A stretch of DNA of 37,753 bases from an uncultured Chloroflexota bacterium (GTDB taxonomy: Bacteria > Chloroflexota > Chloroflexia > Chloroflexales > Chloroflexaceae), in NCBI GenBank assembly GCA_937120965.1, contig CAKZKA010000095.1:1-37753 (forward strand), given 5' to 3'. The translations under genes were made by a program, and so were the position numbers. Below, one piece after another: positions 9,540-33,160 of this stretch. The stretch's first letter is position 1. Each line of letters begins with the position of its first letter. The notes beneath the pieces were generated by a model that was not told the DNA's origin, made no database searches, and worked only from the letters and a program-made list of their open reading frames with translations.

Positions 9540-9690
9540 AGATGCCTATGCGGCTTCGCCGCACCCTGCCAGGATGAACATGGGTTGGTTCCGGGGGGCT
9601 GCGCCGACCCGGAGCCTCCCAACGCAGAGGGCTTGCCACCCCGGCAGGCAGGGGCGTGGGGAAACCTGGTTTCCCCATACCCCAGCCACT
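9540..9690 (-). repeat. Composite hairpin element, reverse orientation
   Basis: It contains ATGCGGCTTCGCCGCA (GCGGC/GCCGC hairpin module), GGATGAACATG (entry-like), the CCCCGGCAGGCAGGGG segment and the palindrome GGGGAAACCTGGTTTCCCC at 9658-9676. The palindrome is perfect with a different central base. It lies 28 bp beyond the stop of the minus-strand hydrolase. Confidence 0.7.
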
Positions 9691-10489: not shown

Positions 10490-10860
10490 TTTCACCACCG
10501 ATGTGAACATAGCCCGCCTGCGGGAGGGTTTGGGAGGGCTGCGCCCTCCCAGGAAAAAAATCTGTTTTCATCGTGTCAGGGTATGGGGAACCCGGGCTTC
10601 CCCAACCCCCTCCCTGCGGGGAGGGTTTGGGGGCCTGTGGGCTGAACATCGAATCGGATGAACTGACCTAGAGTTCCCTACCCCCCTCCGGGGAAGGTTT
10701 GGGAGGGCTGCGCCCTCCCAAGAACACATATTTTCATTCCGGCGTTGTGCGGCGCAGCCGCATGGACGGCTGGGATGGGTTCCCTGGTGCGGGGGAAATG
10801 CGCCAACGAATGGGAAACGAATGACCGAATATAACGAATGCGAACGGCGTGCCTGACTCT
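10490..10860. repeat. Composite hairpin element with two B modules, C module and AACGAAT block
   Basis: In order: entry-like ATGTGAACATAGCCCGCC (10501), hairpin GGGAGGGC/GCCCTCCC (10532-10550), a degenerate 19-bp module (10585-10603), a second GGGAGGGC/GCCCTCCC hairpin (10701-10719), the TGCGGCGCAGCCGCA hairpin (about 10747-10762), and a block (about 10781-10860) with repeated AACGAAT. That last block is nearly duplicated at 25658-25725. The gap 10377-11040 contains no gene that I can support. Confidence 0.8.
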
Positions 10861-11890: not shown

Positions 11891-13057
11891 ATGACTAACC
11901 TGACCTTCTACGAATTCTTCGCCGGCGGCGGTCTGGCACGGATTGGTCTGGGACCGCAGTGGACATGCCTGTTTGCCAACGACTTCGATGAGAAGAAGGC
12001 AGAGGTGTATCGCCGCAACTTCGCCGGCGCGCCCGAGCTGGTCGTTGAGAACATTCATCGCCTTACAGCCGATATGCTGCCGGGGCGTGCGCTGCTGGCG
12101 TGGGCGTCATTTCCCTGCCAGGACCTGTCGCTTGCCGGGAAGGGCGGCGGTCTGCGCGCCGAACGCAGCGGCGCCTTCTGGCCGTTCTGGCGTCTGATCG
12201 TTGATCTTGAACGAGAAGGACGCAGCGTTCCCATCATCGCTATCGAAAATGTGGTCGGTTTGCTATCATCGAATCAGGGGCGCGACTTCCAAGAACTGGC
12301 TTCGGTGATAGTTGCAGAAGGATACCGATTAGGAGCGATGGTTATCGACGCGGTTCACTTCGTTCCGCAATCAAGACCGCGCCTCTTCGTGATTGCGGTC
12401 AAGGAACATGTGACAATACCGGACACGTTGACGACGCATGTGCCAGACGCCCTCTGGCATCCATCTGCGGTCGCGCGCGCGTGCCATGGTCTGGCGCCGG
12501 CTCTGCAGAGCGCGTGGATCTGGTGGAGTCTGCCCGCGCCTGCATGCGCGCGCCCGCACCTGCGCGACGTGATCGATCACGAGCCGGTTGGTGTGTCCTG
12601 GCACAGCCAGGAAGAAACAGGGCGCCTGCTCTCACTGATGTCGCCGCGCAATCTTGCCAGAGTGCGTCACGCGCAGGCAACCGGTCGCCGGTATATCGGA
12701 ACGATCTACAAGCGAACGCGCATCCAGGACGGTGTCAAGCGCCAGCGCGCCGAAGTGCGGTTCGATGGCGTGAGCGGTTGTCTACGCACGCCGACTGGAG
12801 GTTCGAGTCGGCAGACGATACTGGTTGTTGAGGGAGATGGTATCCGCTCGCGCCTGCTGTCGGCACGCGAAGCAGCACGCTTGATGGGATTGCCTGACAG
12901 TTACTGGTTGCCAGAACGCTACAACGACGGGTATCATGTGATGGGAGACGCCGTAGCGGCGCCGGTCGTTTCGTGGCTGGAAACGCATATCCTGCGACCG
13001 CTTGCAACACATATCGCGCAAAGCGTAGAGGAGCAGACGCATAATGTCAGCGTCTAA
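11891..13057 (+). CDS. DNA (cytosine-5) methyltransferase
   Basis: A 388-residue C5 methyltransferase that transfers methyl from S-adenosylmethionine to cytosine in a specific DNA site. Motif I is FYEFFAGGGLARIGL; motif IV, with the catalytic Cys76, is FPCQDLSLAG; motif VI is IAIENVVG; motif VIII is QSRPRLFVIA. The variable target-recognition region lies at about 175-310 and contains CLRTPTGGSSRQ. Motifs IX/X are REAARLMGLPDSYW and YHVMGDAVAAPVV. All core motifs are intact. The stop overlaps the start of the nuclease gene by 14 bp, and a Vsr gene follows, so this is the modification arm of a type II system. The recognition sequence cannot be read from sequence. Base composition is more AT-rich than the neighbours, increasingly so downstream, consistent with horizontal acquisition. 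Confidence 0.95.
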   Translation: MTNLTFYEFFAGGGLARIGLGPQWTCLFANDFDEKKAEVYRRNFAGAPELVVENIHRLTADMLPGRALLAWASFPCQDLSLAGKGGGLRAERSGAFWPFWRLIVDLEREGRSVPIIAIENVVGLLSSNQGRDFQELASVIVAEGYRLGAMVIDAVHFVPQSRPRLFVIAVKEHVTIPDTLTTHVPDALWHPSAVARACHGLAPALQSAWIWWSLPAPACARPHLRDVIDHEPVGVSWHSQEETGRLLSLMSPRNLARVRHAQATGRRYIGTIYKRTRIQDGVKRQRAEVRFDGVSGCLRTPTGGSSRQTILVVEGDGIRSRLLSAREAARLMGLPDSYWLPERYNDGYHVMGDAVAAPVVSWLETHILRPLATHIAQSVEEQTHNVSV

Positions 13058-13910
13058 GCCGATCATTTTCTGTGAGCTGTCCGAACATACGAAGCGCCTT
13101 ATTGAAAAGTATGTCGAGGCGCTCAAATCGTCTGCGCCATCGATTGGCAGCCACGGCATGAACGAGACCGAATTCTGGCAATCAGGACTCTTTCGCGCTG
13201 CTATTGGGCAATTGCGTGGCGCTCAAGCAGCCACAACCCACGAAAAACGTGACTTTATCGAGCGGGTGCTGGGCTTTCTCAAAGATAATCACAAGATTAC
13301 CGACTGGACGTTTAGCGGATCAGGCAATCGCCACGATTACGAGGTTCACATAAACGAAGACTACACGTGTGTCATCGAGGCGAAAGGCTGTCTCGACGGC
13401 AATAACACTAATATCTTCCAGCGCCCGGCCAATGCCAATGAATTCATTATCTGGTCGCTGTGTCAGAATCCCGGCTCAGATCCTCGACACAATGCCTGGT
13501 CGGGCATTCATACGCGGTTAAGCGCTGAGATCATTCACCAAAAGGAGCGAGTGGATGGCTTGATAATCTGGGATATGCTCTGTGGCACGAAAGGTCGCGT
13601 CCGTCCCAAGCTGGCCGCTGGGCTTGAACGTAGCACAAGAGTAGACGCTTTTCAGGTTCCGCCACCGTGTTTGTATCTCTTCCCCAAGACGCTTCCCGAT
13701 GTGCGCAATAATTCCAGACCGGCGTGCTGGAACATTAATGACGTTAGGTTTTTGAAAATACTCTATGACACATTCAAGTGTGATGTTCATGATATAGTTG
13801 AGATTTGCATCGAGGTGCGCACTTCTGGCCCCGATGTTGAACGACGAACGATTTGGAAGCGCAACGGCGTGTTAGTGGTTCAGTCAAGGTGGACAAAAAT
13901 CAAGCGGTAA
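13044..13910 (+). CDS. Probable type II restriction endonuclease
   Basis: A 288-residue protein whose ATG (13044) overlaps the end of the methyltransferase gene and is preceded by AGAGGAG. A candidate PD-(D/E)xK nuclease core is visible at about 97-117: RHDYEV (acidic Asp) followed by TCVIEAKG (Glu-x-Lys). The surrounding sequence (NETEFWQSGLFRAAIG, RDFIERVLGFLKD) is alpha-helical, as is common before such cores. I do not recognise a specific restriction family. The call rests on the E-A-K motif and its position between a 5mC methyltransferase and Vsr. The codon usage is clearly more AT-rich than the host genes. An alternative is an accessory nuclease of unknown type. Confidence 0.72.
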   Translation: MSASKPIIFCELSEHTKRLIEKYVEALKSSAPSIGSHGMNETEFWQSGLFRAAIGQLRGAQAATTHEKRDFIERVLGFLKDNHKITDWTFSGSGNRHDYEVHINEDYTCVIEAKGCLDGNNTNIFQRPANANEFIIWSLCQNPGSDPRHNAWSGIHTRLSAEIIHQKERVDGLIIWDMLCGTKGRVRPKLAAGLERSTRVDAFQVPPPCLYLFPKTLPDVRNNSRPACWNINDVRFLKILYDTFKCDVHDIVEICIEVRTSGPDVERRTIWKRNGVLVVQSRWTKIKR

Positions 13911-13913
13911 ATT

Positions 13914-14324
13914 ATGCCGGATGTTTTTCAGCCAGAAGAACGAAGCCGCATTATGGCAAAGGTGCGCGGCGAGGACACCTTGCCGGAAAAGCTCGTGCGC
14001 TCGTTGATTCACAGGATGGGGTATCGCTTTCGACTTCACTTAAAAGATTTGCCCGGCAAACCTGACATTGTTTTGCCGCGCCACAAGAAAGTTATCTTTG
14101 TACATGGCTGTTTCTGGCATCAACACGAAGGATGCCCTCATGCAGCGCGACCGGCGAGCAACATCGAATACTGGAATAAAAAACTTGATCGAAATATGAT
14201 TCGTGATCGGGAAAATATGCAAAAGCTAGAATATCTTGGCTGGAAGGTGCTTGTCATTTGGGAGTGTGAAACGAGAGATCAGGAGCGATTGATTCAAACT
14301 TTGAAAACCTTCCTGTCTTCCTGA
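13914..14324 (+). CDS. Very-short-patch mismatch repair endonuclease Vsr
   Basis: A 136-residue DNA mismatch endonuclease that nicks 5' of the T in T:G mismatches formed by deamination of 5-methylcytosine. Visible family motifs: RSRIMAKVRGEDTLPEKLVRSLIH at the N-terminus, LPGKPDIVLPRHKKVIFVHGCFWHQHEGC (catalytic Asp in PDI, plus zinc-binding His/Cys), and YWNKKLDRNMIRDRENMQKLEYLGWKVLVIWECE. It starts 3 bp after the nuclease stop and completes a three-gene operon. It protects the host from mutation caused by the neighbouring methyltransferase. Its stop codon TGA (14322-14324) lies inside the entry module CTGAGGTGAAAATAGCCCGC of a hairpin element. Confidence 0.96.
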   Translation: MPDVFQPEERSRIMAKVRGEDTLPEKLVRSLIHRMGYRFRLHLKDLPGKPDIVLPRHKKVIFVHGCFWHQHEGCPHAARPASNIEYWNKKLDRNMIRDRENMQKLEYLGWKVLVIWECETRDQERLIQTLKTFLSS

Positions 14325-14471
14325 GGTGAAAATAGCCCGCGCTCGGGAAGGTTTGGGAGGGCGCAGCCCTCCCAAGAATAGCTATTTTCATTCCGGCGTT
14401 GTGCGCCATGCGCATGACCGTCTGAGGTGAACATACGGGGAAACCGGGGTTCCCCAACCCCCTCCCTGCGG
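14321..14471 (+). repeat. Composite hairpin element at the right edge of the R-M island
   Basis: The entry module CTGAGGTGAAAATAGCCCGC (14321-14340) contains the vsr stop. It is followed by the hairpin GGGAGGGCGCAGCCCTCCC (14355-14373), a GTTGTGCGCCATGCGCATG segment, a second entry module CTGAGGTGAACATA (14422) and the 19-bp module GGGGAAACCGGGGTTCCCC (14437-14455). The order matches the element at 25726-25863. Confidence 0.85.
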
Positions 14472-14676
14472 GGTTTAAGGGCGGACAGAACATTCGAGCC
14501 AACGTGGCGTGTACCCTATTGGAACGCCCCCGCGCGCGGCTCTGGTCTCCCCGCTTCGACAGGCTCAGCGCAGGCGCTCCAGCGAAGCTGGAGCGGGGGA
14601 GGGGGCGGGAGCCACCCAGCGCATCCCAACGCCATACCGCCCGTCGGCGCTCATACGTTCTGTCCGCTCCTGAACC
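14472..14676 (+). mobile_element. MITE-like element, copy 2 (about 205 bp)
   Basis: Left terminus GGTTTAAGGGCGGACAGAAC. The right terminus on the opposite strand reads GGTTCAGGAGCGGACAGAAC. The interior aligns with copy 1 at 5841-6098: GAGCCAACGTGGC, the CTTCGACAGGCTCAGCGCAGG core, GCTCCAGCGAAGCTGGAG and CATCCCAACGCCATA. It lacks the extra ~50 bp of copy 1. It has no transposase or other gene. It is inserted directly next to the hairpin composite after vsr. Confidence 0.78.
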
Positions 14677-15081
14677 CTGTGGGAAGGGAACCAGGCGCCA
14701 CTCCCCAGCAGGGGGCGGTTGGGAGGGAGAGCAAAACACCCACCGCGCCACGCAGCAGCCCGGGTAGCTGACAGGATTCTAATAAACTTCTTATATTGCC
14801 CTGCGCCAGAACAGGTATGATAATTCATCGTTGGAGGGTATCGTCCTATCGGTGACGGCGACCGGTTCTCCCTGTCGGCCATGCACTCCGGGGTGATACC
14901 TGCGCGACACACGTCAACGAAGACATAGTGTGGAGGGTGCATCCCGCAAGCCGAGGCTTCGCTCCCGACCGGAGTGCTCGCGGTTGCTCGAACGTGGCTG
15001 ATGGAACATACGCGCGCTTCGGCAGCGCGTTGTTTCTGGCGCTACGCCAGGTTTGCCGTCGATTAGCAAAGGAGGTGAACG
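14677..15081 (+). promoter_or_regulatory. Upstream region of the zinc-ribbon/glucan synthase operon
   Basis: A gap of about 400 bp with no supported gene. It is AT-richer at 14765-14830. CTGACA (14768-14773) and TATATT (14792-14797) form a possible promoter with an 18-bp spacer; TTGCCC (14796-14801) and GATAAT (14819-14824) form another with 17 bp. The leader would be over 200 nt. I see no known riboswitch. AAAGGAGGTGA (15068-15078) is the ribosome binding site of the next gene. Confidence 0.4.
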
Positions 15082-15489
15082 ATGCAGATCGGCTCTACCT
15101 TGATGACATGCCCGAACTGCGGCGCTGAATGGTCGTCGCCGGCGCTTGCAACCTGCCGGGTCTGCCACTACGCGCCTACCGAGGTCGCCGCCGGCCGCGC
15201 TGCTGCCCCACGCTCGGCCGTTGACCTGCACACGGCGCTGGACGACCTGCTGAGTCGGGCCCGTCGCAGCGGTTTGAGCGCTGAGACGATCCTCCAGGTA
15301 TTGCAAGACGAGCTGGCCTTCGCCGCCGATCTTGCCCAACCCGACCGCCGCCACCTCGTCCAGATCCTCGACCTTGGTCCGCAAGAACTGGGCCTCCGTG
15401 AGCCCTCCGCCGGTAATCGCCGCGCCACCCTGCCGGCCCGTCCGGTCGTGGCCCAGACGATGGCGCCCGCGCCGGCAAAACGCCTCTGA
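15082..15489 (+). CDS. Small zinc-ribbon protein preceding the glucan synthase
   Basis: A 135-residue protein with one of the strongest ribosome binding sites in the window (AAAGGAGGTGA). Near the N-terminus, TCPNCGAEW and TCRVCHYAP place four Cys at 10, 13, 25 and 28, a zinc-ribbon arrangement. Residues about 45-100 are predicted helical (SAVDLHTALDDLLSRARRSGLSAETILQVLQDELAFAADLAQ), and the last 30 are Pro/Ala-rich and probably disordered. There is no signal peptide or membrane helix. The stop is 12 bp before the start of the giant cyclic glucan synthase, so the genes are translated from one transcript. A regulatory or partner role for the synthase is inferred from this pairing only. I do not recognise a named family. 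Confidence 0.78.
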   Translation: MQIGSTLMTCPNCGAEWSSPALATCRVCHYAPTEVAAGRAAAPRSAVDLHTALDDLLSRARRSGLSAETILQVLQDELAFAADLAQPDRRHLVQILDLGPQELGLREPSAGNRRATLPARPVVAQTMAPAPAKRL

Positions 15490-15501
15490 GTCACGTGTGC
15501 C

Positions 15502-18500
15502 ATGGATATTGCTGTCCAGTGGGCTGCGCTGAACCGTAGCCTCAAGACGATCACGGCCTCGATGCGCCGTACTATTCCCGCGGCGATTGGTGGTGTGGTG
15601 ATGCCACCGATCGCGCGGGGGCCCGAGCTGTTCAACGTCGAGCAGCTCGAGCAACACGCCCGCGCTCTCGCCAGCAGCCACCGCCCGGGGCATCCCCTGC
15701 TGAGCCTGCCTGGAGCGTTGATGCTCCAGGTGGCCCAGGACGAACGCGATCTGCTGCGCGCCTATCGCATCCTGGCCGAGGATGCCCGCCAGCGGAAGAT
15801 GGCGCTGCCTGCCGTGGAGTGGTTGCTGGATAATATGTATGTGGTGCGCGACCAGATCCGCGAGATCCGCCAGGATCTGCCCGGGGGCTATTACCGTGAA
15901 TTGCCGAAGTTGATCGGCGGACCCTACCGCGGTCGCCCGCGTGTCTACGCTCTCGCGCAGGAGTTGATCCTTCACAGCGACGGCAAGATTGACCAGGAGC
16001 GCCTGTTGCGCTATGTGCTGGCCTACCAGGCGGTTGCGCCGTTGACGATGGGCGAGCTGTGGGCCGTGCCGATCATGCTCCGCGTGGGCCTGATCGACTA
16101 CCTGGCGCGCCAGGCGCGCCTGGTGCTCGATGTGCGCGCGCAGTACACCGAGGCCGATGCCTGGGCCGAGCGTCTGCTGGCGCAGCCAGACGGCCCGGCG
16201 GAGACGCATCCTGTGCTGCGCGAACTGGCGCAGCGGCATCCCCATCTGCTCCTGCCCTTTGCTGTGCAGTTGCTCCGCCGCCTGCGGAGCTATGATGGCG
16301 AGCGCGATGCCTCCGGGCTGATCGCCTGGCTGGAAGGCCAGCTACCCTCCCGCAGCGCCGAAGAGGTGGTGCACGTTGAGCATCAGCGGCAGGCGGCGAT
16401 CCAGGTCTCGGTCGGTAACGCGATCACCAGCATGCGCACCCTCAACGCCATTGACTGGGCCGACTGGTTCGAGCAGGTCAGCCTGGTTGAGCAGGTGTTG
16501 CGCCAGGACCCGGCGGGGGCCTACCCGCGCAGCACCTTTGCGACACGTGATCGCTACCGTCACGAGGTGGAGCGCCTGGCGCGCGGCAGCGGACGCAGCG
16601 AGGTTGACGTGGCGCGCCAGGCGCTGATCCAGGCCACGCGGGCAGCCGCTGCCGGTGAGAGGCCGCGCGCGGCGCACGTGGGATACTACCTGATCGGCAA
16701 TGGTCAGACGCCCTTCGAGGCCCTGCTGGGCTATCGCGCCGCTCCGGGCGAGGTGGCCCGCCGGGCGCTGCTGCGCCATCCCGCCCCGGTCTACTTTGGC
16801 GCCATTGCCGCCATAACCGGCGCGGCGGTCGCAGGCGGGTTGCGCCTGGCCCGATCCGCGGGCGCGTCGCCGCAGCAGGCGCCCCATCCCGCGCTGCAGG
16901 CCCTGGCGGCCGGGCTGCTCGCCCTGCCCGCCAGCACCCTGGCCATCGAACTGGTTAACCGGGCCGTGGCCCACCTGCTGCCCCCGCGCCTCCTGCCGCG
17001 TCTCGACCTTCGGCACGGCATTCCGGCCGATCTGCGCACCATGGTGGTCGTCCCCACGCTGTTGTTGACGCCCGAAAGTGTGCGGCACCAGCTCGAGACC
17101 CTGGAGGTGCTCTTCCTGGCCAATGAGGACCCCCACCTGCACTTTGCCCTGCTGAGCGACTTTGCCGACGCCCCGCAGCCGCGCATGCCCGAAGATGAGC
17201 AGTTGCTCGCGGTGGCCCGCGAGGGTATCCTGGCATTGAACGCCCGCTACGGCTCCGACCGTTTCTTCTTCCTGCACCGGCGCCGGTTGTGGAACCCCCA
17301 GCAGGGGTGCTGGATGGGCTGGGAGCGCAAGCGCGGCAAGCTCGAGGAGTTCAATCGCCTGCTCGCCGGCGCTACAGATACAACCTACGAGGTGCTGCTC
17401 GGCGACCTGAGCGTGCTGCCGCAGATCCGCTACGTGATCACCCTCGACGCCGACACCCAGCTCCCCCGTGACGCAGCGCGGGCGCTGATCGGCACCCTGG
17501 CTCACCCCCTCAACGCCGCAGTGGTAGACCCGCGGACCCGTCGCACGGTCGAGGGCTACGGCATCCTGCAACCGCGGGTGGGCATTGACCTGCCGAGCGC
17601 CCTTGCCAGCCGGTTTGCGCGGATCTTTGCGGGCAATGTAGGGATCGATCCCTACACCACCGCCGTGTCCGACACCTACATGGACCTGTTCGGCGAGGGG
17701 AGCTTCGTCGGCAAGGGGATTTACGACCCGGCGGTGCTGCGCGAGACCCTGCACGACCGCTTCCCCGAAAACACCCTGCTCAGTCATGACCTGATCGAGG
17801 GCAACTACGCCCGGGTGGCCCTGCTCTCCGATGTCGAGCTGATCGACAGCTACCCGACCACCTACGCGGCCTACGCGGCCCGACAGCACCGCTGGGTGCG
17901 CGGCGACTGGCAGATCGCCGCCTGGCTGCTGCCCTGGACGCCGACAGGAAGCGGGATGTGGGCGCCGAACGTGTTGCCCTTGCTGGCTCGCTACAAGATC
18001 TTCGACAACCTGCGGCGCAGCCTGACAGCGCCGGCATCGGTGGCCATGCTGGGCCTGGGCTGGTTGGTGTTGCCCGGGCGCGCGTGGGTGTGGACGCTGG
18101 CCGCGGTTGCGCCGTTGAGCGTGCCGCTGCTGTTTGAGCTGGCCGACGCGCGCTTCTGGCTTCTCGACTGGCGCCTGGCCCAGCGCCGGCAGGCCAAACT
18201 GGCAGCCCTGCGCGCTGAGGGGCTGCGACTGCTGATCAACATCGCCCTGCTGCCCGATCAGGCGGCGCTCAACGTTGACGCGATCACGCGCACCCTGGCG
18301 CGGATGCTGATCACCCGGCGTCGGCTCCTGGAATGGGAGACGGCCGCCCAGGCTCAGTTGCGCCTGCGACGCTCCTGGGATCGGGCGCTGCGACGCACGG
18401 CCCCGGCGCTGGCGGTGATCGGGCTGCTGGGCCTGACCCGGCCCCGGCAGGCGCTGGAGGCCCTGCCCGCGGCCGCGCCGGTGCTGGCAGCCTGGATCGG

Positions 18501-21500
18501 CTCGCCGGCCCTGGTGGGCTGGCTCGACCGGCCCTACCTGGCCCCTCCACCCCAACCGCTCACCGCCGACGATGTCACGCTCCTGCGCCGCCTGGCCCGC
18601 GCTACCTGGGCCTACTTCGAGCGCTTTGTGGACGAAGAGGGCCATTACCTGGCGCCCGACAACTTCCAGGAAACGCCCACCCCCCTGGTGGCGCCGCGCA
18701 CCTCGCCGACCAACATCGGCCTGCAACTGCTGGCCGACCTGGCAGCCTACGATTTCGGGTACGTCTCGTTGAGCGAACTGACCGCCCGCAGCGAGCGCGT
18801 CTTTGCCACGCTGGAGCGGCTCGAACGCTACCGCGGGCACCTGCTCAACTGGTACGATACACGCACGTTGCGTCCGCTCCCACCGCTGTACGTCTCCACA
18901 GTGGACAGCGGCAACCTGGCCGGCCACCTGATCGCCCTGGCCCAGGGCTACCTGGCGCTGGATCAGGCGCCGATCATCGGCCCGGCGGCGCTGTCGGGGC
19001 TGCGCGACGTGTTGCTGCTGCTGCGCGATCAGGTGGGGGCGGATGACTTGCTGCACGAGCGGCTGGCCGAACTGGAGCGCGCGCTCGAAACGCCGCCGAC
19101 GAGCCTGCGCGGCTACCGCGACCGCCTGCGCGCGCTCCTCGAGCGCACCGAGGCCCTGCGCCTGAGTGGCGCCGCCGCCGACTGGCTACGGGCCTTCCGC
19201 CACCAGGCCCGCGCCCACCTGGAGGACCTGGAAACACTGGCCGGCGCCGAGCTGGGGACAGACGGGCCGGCGCCCAGCCTGGCCGACCTGGCAGCCCGAA
19301 ACGACGCCGCGGCGCGCCTGCGTGAGCGCCAGGCGGCGATCGTCGTCCAGGCGCGCGAGCTCGCGCTGGGAATGGACTTCCGCTTCCTCTACGATGAGAC
19401 GCGGCGCCTCTTCGTGATCGGCTATAACGTCAGCGAGGGCCGCCGCGACACCTCCTTCTACGACCTGCTGGCCTCCGAATCGCGCCTGGCGAGCTTCGTT
19501 GCGATTGCCAAGGGCGACGTGCCCAAGGAACACTGGTTCCACATCGGGCGCACCTTCACCCCCGCCGCCGGTCCGGCGACCCTGATGGCCTGGAGCGGCA
19601 CCATGTTCGAGTACCTGATGCCGCTGCTGGTGATGACCACCTTCCCCGAGACCCTGCTCGATGCCACGGTGCGTGGCGCAGTCGCGGCGCAGATCGCCTA
19701 CGGGGCGCGCAAGGGCGTGCCCTGGGGCATCTCAGAGTCGGCCTACAACAGTCGCGATCTGGCGATGAACTACCAGTACCGCGCCTTCGGTGTACCGGGC
19801 CTGGGCCTGAAGAGCGGCCTGGCCAACGACCTGGTGGTGGCGCCTTACGCCACCGTGCTGGCGTTGAGCGTGCAGCCGCACGCCGCGGTAGAAAACCTGC
19901 GACGGTTGATCGAGCTGGGCATGTGGGGCGCCTATGGTCTCTACGAGGCGGTGGACTTTACTCCCGAGCGGCTTCCACCGGGCAAACAGCGCTCCATCGT
20001 ACGCTCGTTCATGGTCCATCACCAGGGGATGAGCCTGGTGGCGCTCGACAATGCGCTCAACGATGCGATTATGCAGCGCCGCTTCCATCAGGAGCCAATG
20101 ATCCGCGCTACCGAGGCCCTTCTGCACGAGAAGATCCCCCAGAGCGCGCCGATCCAGTTGCCCGAAGATGTGGCCGAGGCGCCAGCGGCGATCCTGCCGG
20201 TGCTCCCCACCTCGCGCCAGTTTGCCAGCCCGGGCACGGCGGTGCCCTACACCCACCTGCTGGGTGGCCCGATCTACCGGGTGGTGCTCACCAACGCCGG
20301 CAGCGGCGCCAGTTTCTACAAGGGCCTGGCGGTGACCCGCTGGCGGCCCGACGGCACACGCGACTGCTGGGGCAGCTTCATCTACCTCCGCGATGCCCGT
20401 AGCGGGCTGGCCTGGTCGGCAGGCTACCAGCCTGTGCGCCGCGAGGGGCAACAGTACCGCGCCCGCTTCAGTCTCGAGAAGGCCGAGTTCTTGCAGCAGA
20501 TCGGCGGCATCGAGACCCGTATGGAGGTCACGGTCTCGCCCGAGGACCCGGCAGAGGTGCGGCGGATCACCCTGACCAACCTGGGCGCAGCGCCCCGCGA
20601 GCTGGAGGTCACCAGCTATGCCGAAGTGGTGCTGGCGCCGCCCTTGGCGGAACTGGCCCACCCGGCCTTTGCCAACCTGTTCGTCGAGACCGAGTTCGTG
20701 GCCGAGCGGGGGGCGCTGCTGGCCTCGCGACGGCCACGGGCAGAGGAGAGCGAGCGCCCCTACGCCGTGCATGTGGTGGCAGCGCGCTCGGGTGTGGTGG
20801 GCGAGGTGGAGTTTGAAACCGACCGGGCCGCTTTTCTGGGACGGGGCCACGGCCCGGCCCATCCGGTGGCCCTCGATCGGCCACTGAGTGGTACTGTCGG
20901 CGCGGTGCTCGACCCGATCTTCAGCCTCCGGCGGCGGGTGCGCATTGCGCCTGGAGCCTCGGTGCAACTCTTCTTCACCACTGCCGTGGGGGCAACCCGT
21001 GAGGAGGCCCTGCGCCTGGCCGACAAGTACCGCGACCCCCTGGTAGGGGCGCGGGCCTTCGATCTGGCCTGGACCCAGGCCCAGGTTGAGTTGCAAAGTC
21101 TGAACCTGGACGGCGACGCGGCCCACCGCTACCAGCGTCTGGCGGCCTTCGCGCTGTTCCCCGACCCGCTCCGGCGCGCTGCGCCCGAGGTGATCGCGCG
21201 CAACCGCAAGGGCCAGCCCGGGCTGTGGGCCTACGGCATTTCCGGCGATGACCCGATTGTGCTGGCGCGCATCTCCGCGCCGGGCGAGCTGGGCCTGGTG
21301 CAGGAACTGTTGCAAGCCCACGAGTACTGGCGGCAGAAGGGGCTGCGGGTCGAACTGGTGATCCTCAACGAGGAAGTCGGCGGCTATATGCACGAGTTGC
21401 ACGAGCAACTGCTGGCGCTGATCCGCAGCGGGCGGGCAGGGGGCTGGCTCAACCAGCGCGGTGGCGTCTTCGCCCTGCGCGCCGACCTGATGCCCGAAGA

Positions 21501-24060
21501 GGACCGCGTGCTGCTGGAGAGCGCCGCGCGGGTGGTGCTGGCAGGCCGGCGCGGCAGTCTGGCCCAGCATCTGCGGCGCCGTGAGGCGGACACGGCGCCA
21601 CTGCCCCAGATTCTCGCCGTGCCCCCTGCGGGAACGGCCCTGTCCCCCGGCGAACCGCTCGCCGTGCGCGGCCCCTACGGCGGCTTTGCCCGCGATGGCG
21701 CCGAATACGTGATCGAACTCGCGCCCGGGCAGTACACGCCTGCGCCCTGGATCAACGTCATCGCCAACCCGCGCTTCGGCTGCATCGTCTCGGAGCGGGG
21801 CACCGGTTACACGTGGGCGGAAAACAGCCGCGAGAACCGTCTGACGCCCTGGTCAAACGACCCGGTGAGCGACCCGGGGGGCGAGGCGCTGTACCTGCGC
21901 GACGAGCGCGACGGCACGGTGTGGTCGCCAACCCCCTGGCCGCTGGGCGCGGGCCATGTGCGGGTGCGCCACGGCTTCGGCTACAGCATCTTCGAGCATC
22001 GCCGTCACGCGATTGCCAGCACACTGACCCTGGGCGTGGCGCCTGAGGACCCGGTGAAGTTTTACCGGCTGGAGCTGAGAAACGAGAGTGACGAAGAGCG
22101 CGAACTGAGCGTCACGTTTTATGTCGAGTGGGTGCTTGGCGTCTTCCGCGAGCAGATGGCGCCCTTTATCGTAACCGTGGCCGACGAAGAGCGCGGAGCG
22201 CTCCTCGCGCGTAACGCCTACAACCACGAGTTCGGGGAACGCATCGCCTTCATCGCCGCCGGTGAGCCGGCGAGCTTCAGCGGCGACCGCGCGGCCTTTA
22301 TCGGGCGCAACGGCGACCTGGCGAGTCCGGCGGCGCTGCTGCGCGGCGGCCCGCTGACGGGCCGCGCGGGCGCCGGGCTGGACCCCTGCGGCGCGCTGCG
22401 CTGTCTGGTGCGGCTGGCGCCCGGCGAACGGCGCGTGCTCGTGCTGCTGCTGGGGCAGGGCGCCGACGAGGGTGAGGCATGGGCGTTGATCGAGCGCTAC
22501 CGCGCCCCCGCAGCGGTTGAGGCGGCCCTGGAGCAGAGCGTGGCCGCCTGGAACGCTCTGCTGGGCCAGACCCGCGTGCGCACGCCCAGCGCGGAACTTG
22601 ATGTGCTGCTCAATGGCTGGTTGCTCTACCAGACCCTGAGCTGCCGGATCTGGGCGCGTTCGGCCTTCTACCAGTCGGGCGGGGCCTACGGCTTCCGTGA
22701 CCAACTGCAAGATGTGCTGGCGCTGCTGCACACCGCGCCGGCCCTGGCGCGCGAACACCTGTTGCGCGCTGCTGCGCGGCAGTTCGTGGAGGGAGATGTG
22801 CAGCACTGGTGGCACCCCCCGACCGGTCGCGGCATCCGCACGCGCTTCGCCGACGACTACCTGTGGCTGCCCTTCGCAACCGCCCACTACGTTCGGTTCA
22901 CCGGTGACGAGAGTGTGCTCGACGAGGTGGCGCCCTTCCTCGAAGGCCGGCCCCTTGCCGATAATGAGGCGGAGTACTACGATCACCCCGCCACTTCAGC
23001 GGAGCAGGCCAGCCTCTACGAGCACTGCGCGCGGGCGGTGGAGCTGGCCCTGCGTCGCCGGGGCGAACACGGCCTGCCGTTGATGGGCGCCGGCGATTGG
23101 AACGACGGGATGAACCTGGTGGGCGCGGGGGGCCGCGGCGAGAGCGTCTGGATGGGCTGGTTCCTGGTCGTTGTACTGCGCGCCATGGCCGAACTGGCGA
23201 CGGCGCGCGGCGAGGCCGAGCGCGCTGCTCGTTACACGGCGGCCGCCCGCGAGCAACTTGCGGCGCTCGAGGCCAGCGCCTGGGACGGGGCCTGGTACCT
23301 GCGCGCGTTCTACGACGATGGCACGCCTCTTGGCTCATCGCGCAGCGAGGAGTGCCGGATTGACCTGCTGCCGCAGGCCTGGGCGGTGATCGCCGGGGGC
23401 GACCCTGCCCGGGCGCGCCAGGCGCTCGAGTCGGCACTCGTACACCTGGTGGACCGCGAGGCGGAGCTTATCCGGCTCTTGACGCCGCCTTTTGATCGCA
23501 GCGAGCACAACCCGGGCTACATTAAAGGTTACGTGCCGGGGGTGCGCGAGAACGGCGGGCAGTACACCCACGCGGCGATCTGGCTGATCTGGGCCTGCGG
23601 GCTGCTCGGCGCGCGCGGGGATGCGAATGCGCTGCTGAGCATGATCAACCCGCTGCGGCACGCCAACACCTACCCTGAGATCTACAAGGTCGAACCGTAT
23701 GTCGTCGCCGCCGACGTCTACGCCGCCGAGCAGCACCGCGGGCGCGGCGGGTGGACCTGGTACACCGGTTCGGCGGGCTGGCTCTACCGGCTGGGTCTGG
23801 AGGTCATCCTGGGGCTGCGGCGCGAGGGGGCCAGCCTGTGTGTGCAGCCGTGTGTGCCACCCGACTGGCCAGGCTATGAGGTGGACTACCGCTACGGCAG
23901 GAGCATCTACCACATCCGGGTGGAACGCCTGCCCGACGAAGCCACCGCGGAACTCGAGACCCTGCTTGACGGCGAACGGCTGCCCGACGGGCGCATCCCC
24001 CTGCGCGACGATGGTCGGACGCACGAGGTGCTGGTGCGGATGGCGCCCGTGGCACGGTAA
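15502..24060 (+). CDS. Cyclic beta-1,2-glucan synthase (NdvB/ChvB/Cgs type)
   Basis: A 2852-residue inner-membrane enzyme, close to the usual length of this family. It polymerises UDP-glucose into beta-1,2-glucan, cyclises it and trims it. Domains in order: an N-terminal cytoplasmic region (1-425); membrane helices near 430-450 and 465-495; a GT84 glycosyltransferase (about 505-830) with TLDADTQLP (Asp649/Asp651), [20 protein letters not shown] and [10 protein letters not shown] (795-804); further membrane segments (about 847-880 and 967-1008); a glycoamylase-like cyclisation region (about 1010-1540) with [20 protein letters not shown]; two beta-sandwich regions of GH94 type (about 1580-1850 and 2060-2330); and the GH94 phosphorylase-like catalytic region (about 2340-2850) with YGFRDQLQD and GDWND (Asp2532). 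The frame is unbroken. Cyclic glucans act in osmotic adaptation and surface interactions in proteobacteria; the role here is unknown. No obvious Shine-Dalgarno precedes ATG 15502, so translation probably depends on the upstream zinc-ribbon gene. Confidence 0.93.
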
Positions 24061-24080
24061 TGGCGGGTGCGTGCTGATGT

Positions 24081-24180
24081 GAACAGATGGGGAAACCGGG
24101 TTTCCCCACGCCCCTGCCTGATGGGGCGCCAGGCGCCCACAACGGCGGTTGGGGTATGGGGAAACCGGGTTTCCCCAAGC
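24081..24180 (+). repeat. Two 19-bp hairpin modules with GGCGCC palindrome between
   Basis: GGGGAAACCGGGTTTCCCC at 24089-24107 and at 24158-24176, both perfect. Between them are CCCCTGCCTGATGGGG, GGGCGCCAGGCGCCC (24124-24138) and AACGGCGGTTGGGG. An entry-like TGATGTGAACA lies at 24074. The element starts 14 bp after the glucan synthase stop. Confidence 0.88.
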
Positions 24181-24204
24181 CCCTCCCTGGCGGGAGGGTA
24201 ATGG

Positions 24205-24210
24205 TATAAT
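24205..24210 (+). promoter_or_regulatory. Consensus -10 box for the microprotein/GNAT operon
   Basis: TATAAT preceded by TGG. The -35 region is occupied by the GGCGGGAGGG part of the repeat and has no good match. Transcription would start near 24217, just before GGAGGT (24222-24227). Confidence 0.5.
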
Positions 24211-24238
24211 CGGGCCAACACGGAGGTCCTGGCCCTGT

Positions 24239-24361
24239 ATGGCACACGATTCCGCGCATTCGGCTCTGAGCATCGGCAGTGCCGGCTCCATTCTGAGCAT
24301 CGGCGGCCGGGGCAAGCTCCGTGGTCGCCCGATAGGTCGCGCCGGAGCGATGCGCCGATGA
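24239..24361 (+). CDS. 40-residue SIGSAGS-type microprotein, coupled to the GNAT gene
   Basis: A short frame from ATG 24239 to TGA 24359-24361 with GGAGGT 11 bases upstream and a TATAAT box just before. The product starts MAHDSAHSALSIGSAG and continues SILSIGG, a short-period S-I-G/S-A-G repeat suited to a stacked beta structure, then a basic tail GRGKLRGRPIGRAGAMRR. I recall similar S-I-G-S-A-G-S repeats in small bacterial proteins of unknown function, but cannot verify this here. The stop overlaps the start of the next gene in an ATGA arrangement, so the two are translationally coupled. Function unknown. Confidence 0.6.
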   Translation: MAHDSAHSALSIGSAGSILSIGGRGKLRGRPIGRAGAMRR

Positions 24362-25584
24362 GCCTCACCTGGACGGTGATCGGCGGCAATGCGGCAACCT
24401 GGGCCGGGCAGGTTGATGCGCTCTACGCCCTGCCGGCGATGGCGACGCAGCCCCTGGTGCCGGCCTACTTCGTCAAGACCTCGTTTGCGCGTATGGGCGG
24501 GAGCCTGGCCGTGCTCCACGCCGGGTCCCGTCCGGCGCCGCTAGGGGTCGGGCTGCTCTTTCCACGCACGATCGTTGCCGGGCAGCCGATCTACACGCTG
24601 CGCCTGCACGCCCTCGGCCCGCTGCCTGGCCTGGAGGAGTTGCAGGCCACCCTCGAACCCCATCTGGCGCCAGCGCGGGTAGTGATCTACCTGCCCGAAG
24701 TCGGACGGACATTTGTCGCAACCCATCGCTCGAGCGACACCTTCGACATCGGCGCGCCGTCGGTGGCCGAACTGCCGGCCATCCGGCGCCTCCGGGGCGT
24801 CATCTGGGGCCTGGGCGACGCCGAAGCCTACCCCGACGATCTCCACAGCGCCGAGTTCGGCCCGGCCACTTCACTGGTCGCGCGCCGCCACGGGCATGTG
24901 GTCGGCTTCCTGCTGGGGTTCTTCCGCTTTGGCCTGCCAGCCCTGGAGGGCCTGCCGCTCCCCTACCGCCTCGACCTGCTCGTTGAGTCGCAGACTATGG
25001 GTGTGGCCGCGGCCTACCGGAGCGCGGGCGTCGCCGCTGCGCTCAAACGTGAACAGGCCCGTCAGGCCCTGGCGCGCCAGCTCGACGTCATCCACTGGAC
25101 TGCCGATCCCTTGCAGTTTCCCAACGCGGTGCTGAACTTCAGCAAGTTGCGCGCGCTTGCCGGCGAGTTTTACCCCGACTACTATCCGTTCCGCAACGAA
25201 CTGAACCGTATCACCGCTTCACGGCTCGGGCTGATCTGGCTGCCCCGTTCGGCGCGCGCTCAGGCCGCCCTTGAGGCGGCGCCGCATCGGGAGCGCCACG
25301 ATCTCAGCCGCTTCGCTGGCTGCGCGATCCTTAACGATGGCCCCAACCCACGCCCCTACCGCAGCGATGCCCCGCACCTGGCCCTTGAAGTTCCCGCAGA
25401 CTGGACCGCCCTGCAACGTGACGACCCCCGCACCGCAGCGGCCTGGCGCGCAACCAGCGACATGCTCCTCGAAGCCTGCCTCGGCTTCGCGCCGGGGCGC
25501 TACCTCATTGGGGATACGGCGCTCGAGGGTGGACGACGGTACCTGATAGCTCATCGCTTCGATCCGGCACTACTCTTGAGGTGA
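24358..25584 (+). CDS. GNAT-superfamily acetyltransferase-like protein (COG3375 type)
   Basis: A 408-residue protein starting at ATG 24358. The middle (about 160-270) has the features of the COG3375 GNAT-like group: LVARRHGHVVGFLLGFF (strand pair), YRLDLLVESQTMGVAAAYRSAGVAAALKREQ (the Q/R-x-x-G-x-A-like acetyl-CoA segment), and IHWTADPLQFPNAVLNFSKLRALAGEFYPDYYP. An N-terminal GNAT-like domain also seems present (about 40-120, VLHAGSRPAPLGVGLLF). The biochemical role of this group is not established to my knowledge; relatives are often next to o-succinylbenzoate or amino-acid enzymes, which is not the case here. It is coupled to the preceding 40-residue frame. The stop TGA (25582-25584) lies within the repeat entry module TTGAGGTGAACATAG. 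Confidence 0.75.
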   Translation: MSLTWTVIGGNAATWAGQVDALYALPAMATQPLVPAYFVKTSFARMGGSLAVLHAGSRPAPLGVGLLFPRTIVAGQPIYTLRLHALGPLPGLEELQATLEPHLAPARVVIYLPEVGRTFVATHRSSDTFDIGAPSVAELPAIRRLRGVIWGLGDAEAYPDDLHSAEFGPATSLVARRHGHVVGFLLGFFRFGLPALEGLPLPYRLDLLVESQTMGVAAAYRSAGVAAALKREQARQALARQLDVIHWTADPLQFPNAVLNFSKLRALAGEFYPDYYPFRNELNRITASRLGLIWLPRSARAQAALEAAPHRERHDLSRFAGCAILNDGPNPRPYRSDAPHLALEVPADWTALQRDDPRTAAAWRATSDMLLEACLGFAPGRYLIGDTALEGGRRYLIAHRFDPALLLR

Positions 25585-25980
25585 ACATAGCCCGCGCGGG
25601 AGGGTTGGGGAAAGCGTAGCCCTTCAGAGGGTTTCACCTGCTCCGGGATAGACTTCCTGGGACGCGGGGGGAAATGCGCCAACGAATGGGAAACGAATAA
25701 ACGAATGCGCAAGGTGTGCCTGACTCTGAGGTGAACATAGCCCGCGCGCGGGAGGGTTTGGGAGGGCTACGCCCTCCCAAGAAAAACTCATGTTCATTGT
25801 GTCGTTGTGCGGCGCAGCCGCATGGACGGCTGAGGTGAACATACGGGGAGTCCGGGTTTCCCCATACCCCTGCCTGTTGGGGCGCCTGGCGCCCTCACAC
25901 CGGTTAGGACGGGTAAACCGGGTTCCCCACACCCCTCCCTGACGGGAGGGCTTGGGAGGGCTACGCCCTCCCAAGTTAAT
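25576..25980 (+). repeat. Long composite of hairpin modules between GNAT and SBP genes
   Basis: In order: entry TTGAGGTGAACATAGCCCGC (25576), the AACGAAT block (25658-25725, near-duplicate of 10781-10860), entry CTGAGGTGAACATAGCCCGC (25726), hairpin GGGAGGGC/GCCCTCCC (25760-25778), GTTGTGCGGCGCAGCCGCA hairpin (25804-25822), entry CTGAGGTGAACATA (25830), 19-bp module (25845-25863, one mismatch), a GGGGCGCCTGGCGCCC palindrome (about 25879-25894), a degenerate 19-bp module (about 25911) and a final GGGAGGGC/GCCCTCCC hairpin (25954-25972). There is no gene in this stretch. Confidence 0.88.
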
Positions 25981-25983
25981 GCC

Positions 25984-26013
25984 TTGCGACGCCTCGCACT
26001 GCCGTGCTATAAT
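25984..26013 (+). promoter_or_regulatory. Promoter of the solute-binding lipoprotein gene
   Basis: TTGCGA (25984-25989) and TATAAT (26008-26013) are 18 bp apart. Transcription would start near 26020, leaving a short leader containing AAGGAG (26032-26037), 6 bases before the GTG start. Confidence 0.7.
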
Positions 26014-26043
26014 TCCAGAGTTTATACCGGCAAGGAGCGCCCC

Positions 26044-27354
26044 GTGGCCGTGCCTCAGCAACTGAGACGGATCGTGATCCTGGCCCTGACGCTCCTCACC
26101 TTCATCGCATGCAGCGCGCAAGGCCCCGGTCTCGCCACGACCCCTCAGCCTGCCGCGCCGGGACCGGCGCGGACGATTCTGCTTCTCTGGCACGCCTGGA
26201 CACCCCCCGCCGATCGCGCCCTCGCCACGGTGGTCGAACGTTTCAACCGCGCCAATCCAGGCATACAGGTCGTGATCCAGACCCGTCAGGTCACCAGTCT
26301 GCGTGATGATCTGGCAAATGCCGTGGCCGAGGGCGGCGGTCCGCATCTGGCGATTGTCTCCAGCCATACCCTGGGCAGCCTGGCCGAGGAAGGCGCGCTG
26401 CTGCCCCTCGATGATCTCCTGGCGGCACAGGAACTCGAGCGGTTGCTGCCAACAGCGGTGGGGGCGGCCCGGGTGCGCCACCGCGAGGGCGCCAGCCTCT
26501 ACGGCGTGCCGCTCACCTTCGATACCCTTGCGCTGTACTACAACAAGGCCAATTTCTCCGCGGCCCCGCCGGGCGACACCGACAGCCTGCTGCGCGTGGC
26601 GCGGGGCCTGAGCGATAGCCGTAGCGACCCGCCGGTCTGGGGCCTGGCCTACAACCTCAACCTCGACCGCACCATCGGGTACCTCTACGCCTTTGGCGGG
26701 CGCATCTTCGACGATGAGGGCAACCTCGTGCTCGGGCTTGACGGCCGTACCGGAGCTGAGGCCTGGTTGGAGTGGCTGCTGGCCCTGCGCGAAGACGAGG
26801 GCTTGCTGGCGGGGCTGGACGGCATCGCCGTAGACAATGCCCTGATGAGCCAGCGCGCGCTGATGACTATTGACTGGGCCCACGCGCTGGGTCGCTACAG
26901 CGCGCTCTGGCCAGGCAAACTGGGGGTCGCCCCCCTGCCGCGCCTCTCCGGAACGAACCGGTTGCCCCAGCCATACGTTCAGAGCGACACGCTGGTGCTC
27001 AATGCCCGCGTGGGCGATGGCCCGGAGCGCGGCGCAGCCGTTGCCTTCACCCGCCATCTTATTACCGACGCCTCGCAGCGCGAACTATTGCGCGCCGGAC
27101 GCCAGCCGGTGCTGATGAGCCTCGACCTCAACGCCGCCGATCTGGCTGTTCCCACCGAGATGCGTGAGGCCGCCCGCGTGTTTCGCGCCCAGGCCGAGGC
27201 CGGCCTGCCCATGCCTAACACCCGTGCCGCTACCGAAACCGTCTGGCCGGTGCTGACCGATATGCAGGGCAGCGTACTGCGACGCCTGCTCACTCCCGCC
27301 CAGGCCGTGGAGTATGCCGACACGACCCTCCGCGCCCGCCTTGATCAACCTTGA
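26044..27354 (+). CDS. ABC transporter extracellular solute-binding lipoprotein (family 1)
   Basis: A 436-residue lipoprotein that captures a solute, probably a sugar or oligosaccharide, outside the membrane. GTG 26044 is chosen because AAGGAG lies 6 bases upstream and gives a normal lipoprotein signal: basic LRR, hydrophobic IVILALTLLTFIAC, Cys23 as lipid anchor. The mature part is a family-1 solute-binding fold: ILLLWHAWTPPADRALATVVERFNRANPGIQVVI, then VPLTFDTLALYYNKANF (typical of maltose-type binders), AYLYAFGGRIFDDEGN-like segment near 200, and a C-terminal RAATETVWPVLTDMQG. No permease or ATPase genes are adjacent, so its partners are elsewhere. The stop TGA (27352-27354) lies inside a repeat entry module. 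Confidence 0.9.
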   Translation: MAVPQQLRRIVILALTLLTFIACSAQGPGLATTPQPAAPGPARTILLLWHAWTPPADRALATVVERFNRANPGIQVVIQTRQVTSLRDDLANAVAEGGGPHLAIVSSHTLGSLAEEGALLPLDDLLAAQELERLLPTAVGAARVRHREGASLYGVPLTFDTLALYYNKANFSAAPPGDTDSLLRVARGLSDSRSDPPVWGLAYNLNLDRTIGYLYAFGGRIFDDEGNLVLGLDGRTGAEAWLEWLLALREDEGLLAGLDGIAVDNALMSQRALMTIDWAHALGRYSALWPGKLGVAPLPRLSGTNRLPQPYVQSDTLVLNARVGDGPERGAAVAFTRHLITDASQRELLRAGRQPVLMSLDLNAADLAVPTEMREAARVFRAQAEAGLPMPNTRAATETVWPVLTDMQGSVLRRLLTPAQAVEYADTTLRARLDQP

Positions 27355-27372
27355 GGTCAACGTAGCCCGCAT
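27351..27372 (+). repeat. Solitary entry module at the stop codon of the SBP gene
   Basis: TTGAGGTCAACGTAGCCCGC, a slightly diverged copy of TTGAGGTGAACATAGCCCGC with no following hairpins. The TGA is the stop codon of the preceding gene. Confidence 0.6.
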
Positions 27373-28403: not shown

Positions 28404-28440
28404 AGGCAGGGGCAACCGGGTTTCCCCGCGCCCCTGCCCA
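28404..28440 (+). repeat. 19-bp hairpin module, mixed-arm copy
   Basis: GGGGCAACCGGGTTTCCCC at 28409-28427 followed by GCGCCCCTGCC. The left arm is the C variant and the right arm the T variant, so one position is unpaired. It lies 5 bp from the stop of the UPF0158-like gene. The rest to 28535 has no gene. Confidence 0.8.
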
Positions 28441-30851: not shown

Positions 30852-30994
30852 CTCGTTCACATCCAACACGTACCGCCAGCGGTCCCCACGACCTGTCCGC
30901 TGAAGGGTTTGGCCCGTATCTCAGAATTTCTGTGGAACGGCGCGCGGCTCGCCGCGCGCTGCGGGTTCCTGTGGCCAGTGCCAGGGAGGCGCAT

Positions 30995-32392
30995 GTGAAC
31001 TTAAACCAGATCTGGCAGGCAGCACTGGGCACGATCCAATTGCAGACCTCGCGCCAGGAATTTGACACCTGGCTGCGTGGCACCAGCCTGCTCGCTCTCG
31101 ATGGCGGGCTGGCTACTGTTGGCACCCTTTCGCCCTTCCACAAGGAGGGACTGGAGTCGCGCTTTCTGATACCGGTGCGGCGCTCCCTCGGCGATGTGGT
31201 CGGGTATCCGGTGCAGGTGCGGGTGGTGATCGCCACCGGCGCGCACCAGTCCCCCCGAGGTGACAGCGCTCCCGCAACTGCCGCGCTCACCCCAACGGAT
31301 GAAGATAGTTGCCTTACCGGCGAGCGGGCCGTGCAGCTCGAGCTTTCCAGTGCCATGCGCTCGGGTATGCTTAACCCGAAGTATACCTTCTCACGCTTCA
31401 TTGTCGGTTCCAGCAACCGGTTGGCCCACGCCGCCTGTCTGGCCGTCGCCGATAAGCCCGGCCAGGCCTACAATCCCCTCTTCCTCTACGGCGGCGTTGG
31501 TCTGGGCAAGACACACCTGCTCCACGCCATCGGTAATTATGTGCTCGACCGCGATCCGGAGATTAATGTGCTCTATGTGTCTTCGGAGAAGTTTACCAAT
31601 GATCTGATTAATGCCATCCGCCGACAGCAGACCGATGAGTTCCGTATGCGCTATCGGAACATTGATGTGCTGCTGATTGATGACATCCAATTCATCGCCG
31701 GGAAGGAGTCCACCCAGGAGGAGTTCTTCCATACCTTCAATGCGCTCCACTCCGCCGCTAAACATATCGTGATCAGTTCTGATAAACCGCCCAAGGCTAT
31801 CCTGACCCTCGAGGAACGCCTGCGCTCGCGCTTCGAGTGGGGCCTGATTGCCGATGTGCAACCGCCGGACCTGGAGACGCGCACGGCCATCCTCCGGGCC
31901 AAGGGTGATCAGATGAACGTCCTGGTGCCCGATGAAGTGATTGATTTCCTGGCCCATAAGGTGCAGAGCAATATTCGTGAGCTTGAGGGCAGCCTGAACC
32001 GGGTGGCCGCCTACGCCGCGATGCACGGCCTGCCTATCAGCGTGGAGGTTGCAACCCAGGCCCTCGCTGATCTGCTCGGCAATACTCGTCGTCGCCGCAT
32101 TACCGCCGAGACGATTATCCAGGCCGTAAGCGAACACTACGGCGTTGATGTGCGCGCCCTGACCGGTCGCGGCCGCTCGCGGAACGTTGTGCTGCCGCGC
32201 CAGGTCGCTATGTACCTCCTGCGCGAAGAGACTGAGGCGAGTCTGATGGATATCGGCAATATGCTCGGTGGCCGTGACCATACCACGGTGATGCACGGCT
32301 GTGAGAAGATCGCCGAAGAGATGACTACCGATAATCGCCTCCGCGGCGAGGTGCTGAGCATCCGCGAAAAGTTGCATACCCTGGCGGGGTGA
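30995..32392 (+). CDS. Chromosomal replication initiator protein DnaA
   Basis: A 465-residue initiator that binds DnaA boxes, oligomerises with ATP and opens the origin. GTG 30995 is chosen because GGGAGG (30984-30989) lies 5 bases upstream and the protein then begins with the usual [27 protein letters not shown] domain I. Domain II (about 85-125) is short. Domain III has Walker [17 protein letters not shown] (Lys172), Walker B LLIDDIQF (Asp229/Asp230), and the LRSRFEWG arginine-finger region. Domain IV ends with the signature [15 protein letters not shown] (about 425-439). The frame upstream to 30932 is open but lacks a ribosome binding site. dnaN does not follow, unlike in many bacteria. 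Confidence 0.98.
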
Positions 32393-32699: not shown

Positions 32700-33160
32700 G
32701 CCAGCGGTTTGTGCGTGCCTGAGGTGAACATACGGGGAAACCGGGTTTCCCCACCTGCGGTGAGCCTGTCGAACCGCACCCCTGCCTGCTGGGGCGCCAG
32801 GCGCCCCCAACGGCGGTTGGGATACGGGGAAACCGGGTTTCCCCACCCCCCTGCCTGCGGGGAGGCGCCCGGTTCCCTCCCCCAGCAGGGGAGGGCCAGG
32901 GAGGGGGCGGCCCTCCCAAAGACGCCCCATGGTCATCGCGGCGGTGTGCGCCCCGCGCACGGGGCCTACCGTGAACATACGGGGAAACCGGGTTTCCCCA
33001 CCTGCGGTGCGCCGGTCGAACCGCCTGCGGTGCGCCGGTCGAACCGCACCCCTGCCTGGAGGGGCGCCAGCCGCTCCCACCAGCGGTTGGGAAATGGGGA
33101 ACCCGGGTTTCCCCACCTGCGGTGAGCCTGTCGAACCGCACCCCTGCCTGTGGGGAGGTC
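32700..33160. repeat. Composite repeat block with four 19-bp modules downstream of dnaA
   Basis: 19-bp modules lie at 32734, 32826, 32981 and 33096 (the last has one mismatch). Entry modules are at 32719 (CTGAGGTGAACATA) and 32971 (GTGAACATA). Copies of the TGAGCCTGTCGAA or TGCGCCGGTCGAA unit lie near 32760, 33003, 33026 and 33118. A GGGGCGCCAGGCGCCC palindrome is near 32791. Frames across this block encode only repeat-derived peptide. Confidence 0.88.
32881..32959 (+). repeat. Long inverted repeat, left copy
   Basis: A 79-bp stretch running from CCCAGCAGGGGAGGGCC to GTGTGCGCCCCGCGCA. Its reverse complement is present at 37637-37715 with about three differences by eye. The pair encloses the permease and thioredoxin-like lipoprotein genes. 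Confidence 0.85.

Follow-up and report, generated by a model that had tools for sequence, protein, structure and literature searches.

Repetitive extragenic palindromic (REP) sequences that carry a GTAG tag often supply a TAG stop codon to flanking open reading frames (ORFs), and many REPs abut gene 3' ends (PMC3733652). Five phyla are listed for the CGTC REPs; Chloroflexota is not included (PMC3733652). The DNA analysed here, a stretch of 37,753 nucleotides (the window; contig CAKZKA010000095.1), belongs to the draft genome of an uncultured bacterium of a Chloroflexales lineage (5.18 Mb, 307 contigs; G000), and three of its genes end inside the left end, or entry module, of a hairpin-forming repeat. 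No literature on such repeats in Chloroflexales was found. With a probability of about two in three, the family is a high-copy mobile repeat of non-coding DNA, tagged by CT/CTGA, that survives in any dispensable DNA and for which stop codons are the outermost tolerated target. The features at the three stops are as follows.

13914 to 14324, plus strand: vsr (TIGR00632, PF03852), the end of which lies within the entry module
14321 to 14335, plus strand: left end (entry module) CTGAGGTGAAAATAG, the first TGA of which (14322-14324) ends vsr
14326 to 14392, plus strand: unit body at vsr, with closing stem GTGAAAATAG, two inner hairpins and 3' strand CTATTTTCAT
14398 to 14423, plus strand: right-end hairpin GTTGTGCGCCATGCGCATGACCGTCT, with tandem junction CT/GAGGTGAACATA into the next unit
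14422 to 14435, plus strand: second entry module CTGAGGTGAACATA with a GGGGAAACC hairpin after it
24358 to 25584, plus strand: gene of 408 amino acids (aa), earlier labelled 'GNAT-like'; no Pfam or NCBIfam match
25576 to 25595, plus strand: entry module TTGAGGTGAACATAGCCCGC, the second TGA of which (25582-25584) ends the 408-aa gene
25726 to 25830, plus strand: second unit of the array at the 408-aa gene (entry 25726-25739, exit strand ATGTTCAT 25790-25797, right-end hairpin 25804-25830)
25830 to 25975, plus strand: third entry (25830-25843) with GGGGA..TTTCCCC and GGGAGGGCTACGCCCTCCC hairpins
25984 to 27354, plus strand: gene for an extracellular solute-binding protein (SBP; PF01547)
27351 to 27370, plus strand: degenerate, truncated entry TTGAGGTCAACGTAGCCCGC, in which TGA 27352-27354 ends the SBP gene

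An earlier note on this DNA had placed all three stops within the repeat's left end CTGAKGTGAAMATA, with vsr and the SBP gene using the first TGA and the 408-aa gene the second, in a different frame; positions and frames were confirmed. The vsr gene ends TCC TGA (14322-14324, within TGAGGTGAAAATAGCCCGC) and its product is 1 aa shorter than in relatives (FLSS at the end, FLSDE in relatives). The 408-aa gene ends TTG AGG TGA (25582-25584, within TGAGGTGAACATAGCCCGC), which adds one Arg after ..LLL, where relatives stop with TAA or TAG. The SBP gene ends CCT TGA (27352-27354, within TGAGGTCAACGTAGCCCGC), and its C-terminus RLDQP is the same in the congeners G002, G003 and G004, which lack the repeat there. 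This last copy is a degenerate stub: no hairpin follows, and the sequence after GCCCGC is unique. The closest named relatives of the SBP are from Chloroflexaceae bacterium SKW209 (86%) and an uncultured Chloroflexales bin (85%).

The core CTGAKGTGAAMATA (≤1 mismatch) occurs in 1,173 copies in the own genome, in 14-78 copies in four congeners (G001 to G004) and in 0-9 copies in other family members; the GCCCGC form is found 462 times as against 1-5 times in the congeners. These counts point to a genus-wide repeat family that has been amplified in this species, and the species-specific amplification suggests that the repeat is mobile. A unit starts with GA[G/T]GTGAA[A/C]ATA at a left junction CT/GAKGTGAAMATA, contains one or more variable hairpins within a closing stem that ends in TATKTTCAT, and terminates with a GTTGTGCG..CGCA hairpin followed by ..CT. 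The end tag CTGA[G/T] is conserved at 94% (C), 97% (T), 94% (G) and 98% (A), and the right end varies (GACCGTC, GGACGGC, GGGGCC). The unit ends are unlike each other (GAKGTGAA and GACGGCT) and convergent ends are rare. Units are 90-240 bp long composites, frequently in tandem with a head-to-tail junction ..GACGGCT/GAGGTGAACATA. Single units are predicted to fold into a three-way junction (z -4.0 for 14321-14425), and the hairpin folds have z-scores of -2.9 to -4.0. In G004 (L128, minus strand 1709-1905) tandem units have the same entry and right ends but other inner hairpins (GGCGGGTAGGCCGCAGCGCGCTGCGGCC...). A search of Rfam gave no match in the window at gathering score and none at the repeat units; IMG/VR gave no match, so that viral carriage of the repeat is unsupported.

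The frequency of gene-ending copies was determined in 61 stretches (1.01 Mb) of the own genome, with genes called by a purpose-written simple caller; vsr, which the caller missed, was entered into the gene set by hand. Batches 1-2 of the sample were picked on contigs with modules, which biases the density upward; batch 3 was not so picked. The sample holds 338 modules versus 3 for the reversed pattern, so the abundance of the module is not due to chance. Nine of the 338 lie within called genes. Of 175 modules downstream of sense genes, 40 contain the stop of the upstream gene. Counting the first module per array, a sense gene lies to the left in 98 cases and an antisense start in 100, and in 38 of the 98 the array supplies the stop of the left-hand gene (27 first TGA, 11 second TGA). 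The statement that the module offers stops in more than one frame is thus true genome-wide: the module T falls on codon position 1, 2 and 3 in 27, 11 and 2 genes, and the third frame alone reads through.

For 36 module-ended genes, orthologues from as many as four congeners were compared. Of the 25 first-TGA genes, 19 have a modal length difference of zero; among the 11 second-TGA genes, 7 have a modal value of 0 or +1 residue. At sites of unchanged length the relatives' stops are TGA in 25 rows of the comparison, TAA in 9 and TAG in 8; one site, for example, reads TCGCGC-TAG in three congeners and TCGCGC-TGAGGTGAAC in the own genome. A larger set was obtained from a single congener (G003, 0.88 Mb), against which length is kept in 17/22 first-TGA genes and 206/273 control genes (p = 1); a minority of module-ended genes is cut by 6-12 residues. 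Within 30 nt on either side of the native stop there are 44 insertions, of which 17 coincide exactly with the stop (p = 2e-19 versus uniform placement). Termination is therefore preserved, as had been proposed, and C-termini match those of relatives without the repeat. The earlier note had counted such orthologues against its own proposal; they do exist, but what they show is insertion exactly on the native stop and not an accidental link.

The bases at these sites indicate which part of the stop codon the host provides. TGA is the stop in 59% of relatives, versus 85% expected if a whole host CTGA were needed (controls with their own CTGA stop; p = 0.04). C precedes the stop in the congener at 9/17 sites (53%) versus 49/206 controls (24%; p = 0.017), 24% being expected if the element brings the C. 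G after the stop is enriched (13/17 versus 83/206, p = 0.005), as is the context YTRRG (10/17 versus 36/206, p = 0.0004). The likeliest of four models has the C pre-existing and GA coming from the element; it is favoured 12-fold over all bases from the element and 25-fold over a pre-existing CTGA. After the right ends comes CT and then variable sequence. A unit would thus insert after a host CT, within an extended target of roughly YTRRG, to give the left junction CT/GA. Copies persist in non-coding DNA up to the gene edges, in both orientations. If the C of the host CT closes a codon and its T opens a TAG, TAA or TGA, the GA of the element would complete a TGA, keeping protein length and limiting the change to the stop codon; a CT one or two codons earlier would let the second TGA end the gene with at most one or two residues altered. 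Stops would then be a by-product of the element's end sequence together with selection against damage. A TNA target duplication was rejected for the family, as the left trinucleotide is nearly always TGA and the right flanks differ. Variant CTAAC ends are coupled to C at the next base and look like subfamilies.

Several points weigh against this account. The target estimate comes from 17 sites and one congener, and possible module relics occur at congener sites (e.g. TGAGATGAACCGA in G003 and the module-like TGATGTGAACATAACC at one G002 stop); relics of old modules held in common could inflate the similarity of congener sites to the target. Start-side sites show no clear pre-existing CTGA. The congeners have their own repeats in the corresponding gaps, so that no single unit could be matched to a clean, full-length empty site, nor could empty sites fix the right boundary. 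Compensatory change in the closing stem amounts to a weak C-G/A-U association at one pair only (p = 0.045, n = 140). RAYT/Y1_Tnp (PF01797, IS200/IS605-like) transposases have 0 matches in G000, G002, G003 and G004 and one weak match in G001, and an IS110-like transposase (PF01548, DEDD) is absent from the own genome. If the target were bare CT, stops would be preferred 6-fold.

This conditional 6-fold preference, together with the sharp peak exactly on the native stop and two genes whose stop bears one repeat in the own genome and an unrelated one in G002, favours a mobilising system that truly prefers stops or gene 3' ends beyond the local motif. In such a case an unrecognised mobilisation system without known transposase may have as its target the context of the stop codon itself, Y-T-R-R-G, a pattern matched by TAA, TAG and TGA when G follows, the element's GA converting any of these stops to TGA; gene ends would then be reached by a built-in route that leaves the protein unchanged. 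Both versions are unlikely, though they fare best among the alternatives. The left edges of arrays face sense stops and antisense starts equally (98 versus 100), and modules are present in 0.35 of divergent, 0.31 of convergent and 0.25 of tandem intergenic regions. The targeted insertion at gene 3' ends suggested in the earlier note is therefore unsupported. Of the CTGAs at stops 15.5% are occupied, compared with 30% within 30 nt downstream, 26% within 30 nt before starts, 10% in the remaining non-coding DNA and 0.2% inside genes, so that stops are no more occupied than neighbouring CTGAs. With a CTRRG or YTRRG target, the insertion rate per site at stops is 0.8-0.9 times that in the 30 nt that follow. 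On the start side, arrays extend right to the ribosome-binding site. Read most simply, the element inserts at any occurrence of the motif and survives at any place where its arrival costs nothing essential.

That the module is a functional 3' untranslated region or terminator, kept because it ends genes or transcripts, is improbable, more so than a preference for stops. Strong predicted hairpins (z -2.9 to -4.0) are in keeping with it, as are plain GGGGAAACC hairpins, which occur at a distance of up to 30 nt more frequently from stops (67/378) than from starts (27/416). Modules, however, adjoin starts in equal numbers, and each congener has different repeats in place of the intergenic content. 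Both module TGAs are equally conserved in arrays that no gene reads into, so they belong to the element's end and are not adapted to termination; conservation is independent of use as a stop. Random insertion with truncation at the first in-frame module stop, only tolerant genes surviving, would explain the minority shortened by 6-12 residues but is very improbable and is refuted as the main account by the 17/22 first-TGA genes of unchanged length, the rejection of uniform placement (p = 2e-19) and the unequal frames (27:11:2).

A separate repeat of about 140 bp, a miniature inverted-repeat transposable element (MITE) with ends GTAGTCTGTGAACG and CGTTCACAGACTAC and terminal inverted repeats of about 14 bp, occurs in G002, G003 and G004 (102, 30 and 32 ends; none in G001) at loci L253, L256, L263, L268, L271, L275, L278, L280 and L218. 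Its 3-bp flanks (TCA, TAA or TGA) are the same in 9 of 12 pairs, a TNA duplication; MITEs that target TNA have an IS5/IS1031-like target. On a TAA or TGA stop this MITE duplicates the stop, with correct termination of the gene retained (L253, L256, L263); at L256 the flanking GGGC-TGA-GTGG is uninterrupted in G003 and G004. In two genes (L037 ~2112 and L056 ~6382; with L256 and L253) the own repeat and the G002 MITE sit on the same stop codon in different species. The MITE resembles the own family in genus, gene-end position and the taking and preserving of TAA/TGA stops; the own family differs in having neither terminal inverted repeats nor TNA duplication. At orthologous loci of G000-G004, species-specific hairpin repeats have taken the place of most intergenic DNA, from stop codon to ribosome-binding site, while the flanking genes remain highly similar.

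Within the window the 19-mer (≤3 mismatches) occurs 5 times versus 0.01 expected from shuffling. Further copies are listed here.

2262 to 2274, plus strand: variant entry TGAGGTGGAAATA, which opens a 50-bp hairpin array
10499 to 10580, plus strand: unit with degenerate entry CGATGTGAACATAGCCCGC, away from any stop
24075 to 24087, plus strand: variant entry TGATGTGAACAGA, 14 nt past the stop of the 2852-aa gene
32719 to 32732, plus strand: entry module CTGAGGTGAACATA with GGGGAAACC hairpins
37263 to 37276, minus strand: entry module (CTGAGGTGAACACA)

The array opened by TGAGGTGGAAATA (2215-2767) comprises eight tandem repeats of about 50 bp with GGGGCAACCGGGTTGCCCC-type hairpins. Hairpins had also been noted 5-28 bp from three further stops, and the distances found agree: 117-135 lies 8 nt from the DCC1-like stop (gene 144-533, minus strand, PF04134), 9658-9676 lies 28 nt from the hydrolase stop (9705, minus strand) and 28409-28427 lies 5 nt past the end of an 84-aa ORF. 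All three are plain hairpins with no CTGA entry. The labels 'GNAT-like' and 'UPF0158-like' were not confirmed, with no Pfam or NCBIfam match. A C5-cytosine DNA methylase, a 288-aa unknown ORF and vsr lie in one stretch (11891-14324); vsr was overlooked by the codon-based gene caller, which hints at foreign codon usage. The 2852-aa protein (15502-24060) has GH94 and glucoamylase-like domains (cyclic beta-glucan synthase type). A weak match to AsdA, the antisense RNA of dnaA (32.7 bits, gathering score 52; 31487-31556, minus strand), sits antisense inside the dnaA gene (30932-32392).

Taken as a whole, the earlier interpretation stands for the two-frame stops and the preserved termination and is unsupported for the targeting of gene 3' ends. 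The comparison gives a base-level, controlled answer to how a repeat can lie harmlessly on many gene ends: the native stop position is kept and the repeat end completes the codon. It also tells target availability plus selection apart from true targeting of 3' ends, which had been an open issue for REP-like elements. Within a single genus, two different repeats spare stops by two routes, and the non-coding DNA between conserved genes has to a large extent given way to species-specific repeats.

Compared with known systems, the family shares with GTAG REPs and REP doublets forming hairpins (REPINs) the hundreds of intergenic palindromic copies, the fixed tetranucleotide at one end and the dimers or arrays. 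It has the REP-type traits of high copy number (1,173), intergenic position and predicted hairpins. Unlike the GTAG REPs and REPINs, which are mobilised by RAYT, a Y1 tyrosine transposase, it has no Y1 transposase in its own genome or in G002-G004. Membership in the GTAG REPs was rejected, as two defining features (GTAG tag, Y1 transposase) fail, and IS200/IS605-like (PF01797) and IS110-like (PF01548) movers were rejected because the transposases are not in the own genome. IS110-type elements have a CT core dinucleotide. The repeat likewise has CT at both junctions and no longer duplication, but without PF01548 in the own genome the resemblance is confined to the dinucleotide. A classical MITE was rejected, since the family has no terminal inverted repeats and no target duplication beyond CT was seen. 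Like the CGTC REPs, the family is palindromic, of high copy number and without a dedicated transposase known (PMC3733652), and one right-end variant is GACCGTC; unlike them, it has CGTC merely as one of several right ends (GGACGGC, GGGGCC) and its units are larger composites. As in the GTAG REPs, the end tag supplies stop codons (PMC3733652), but the tag is CTGA and gives TGA where GTAG gives TAG, and the units are composites of 90-240 bp instead of palindromes of 20-40 bp. In this the family works like the GTAG REPs, with CTGA for GTAG, without being a member. Stop-supplying repeats are already known; what is new is this family and the comparison, base by base, of sites before and after insertion.

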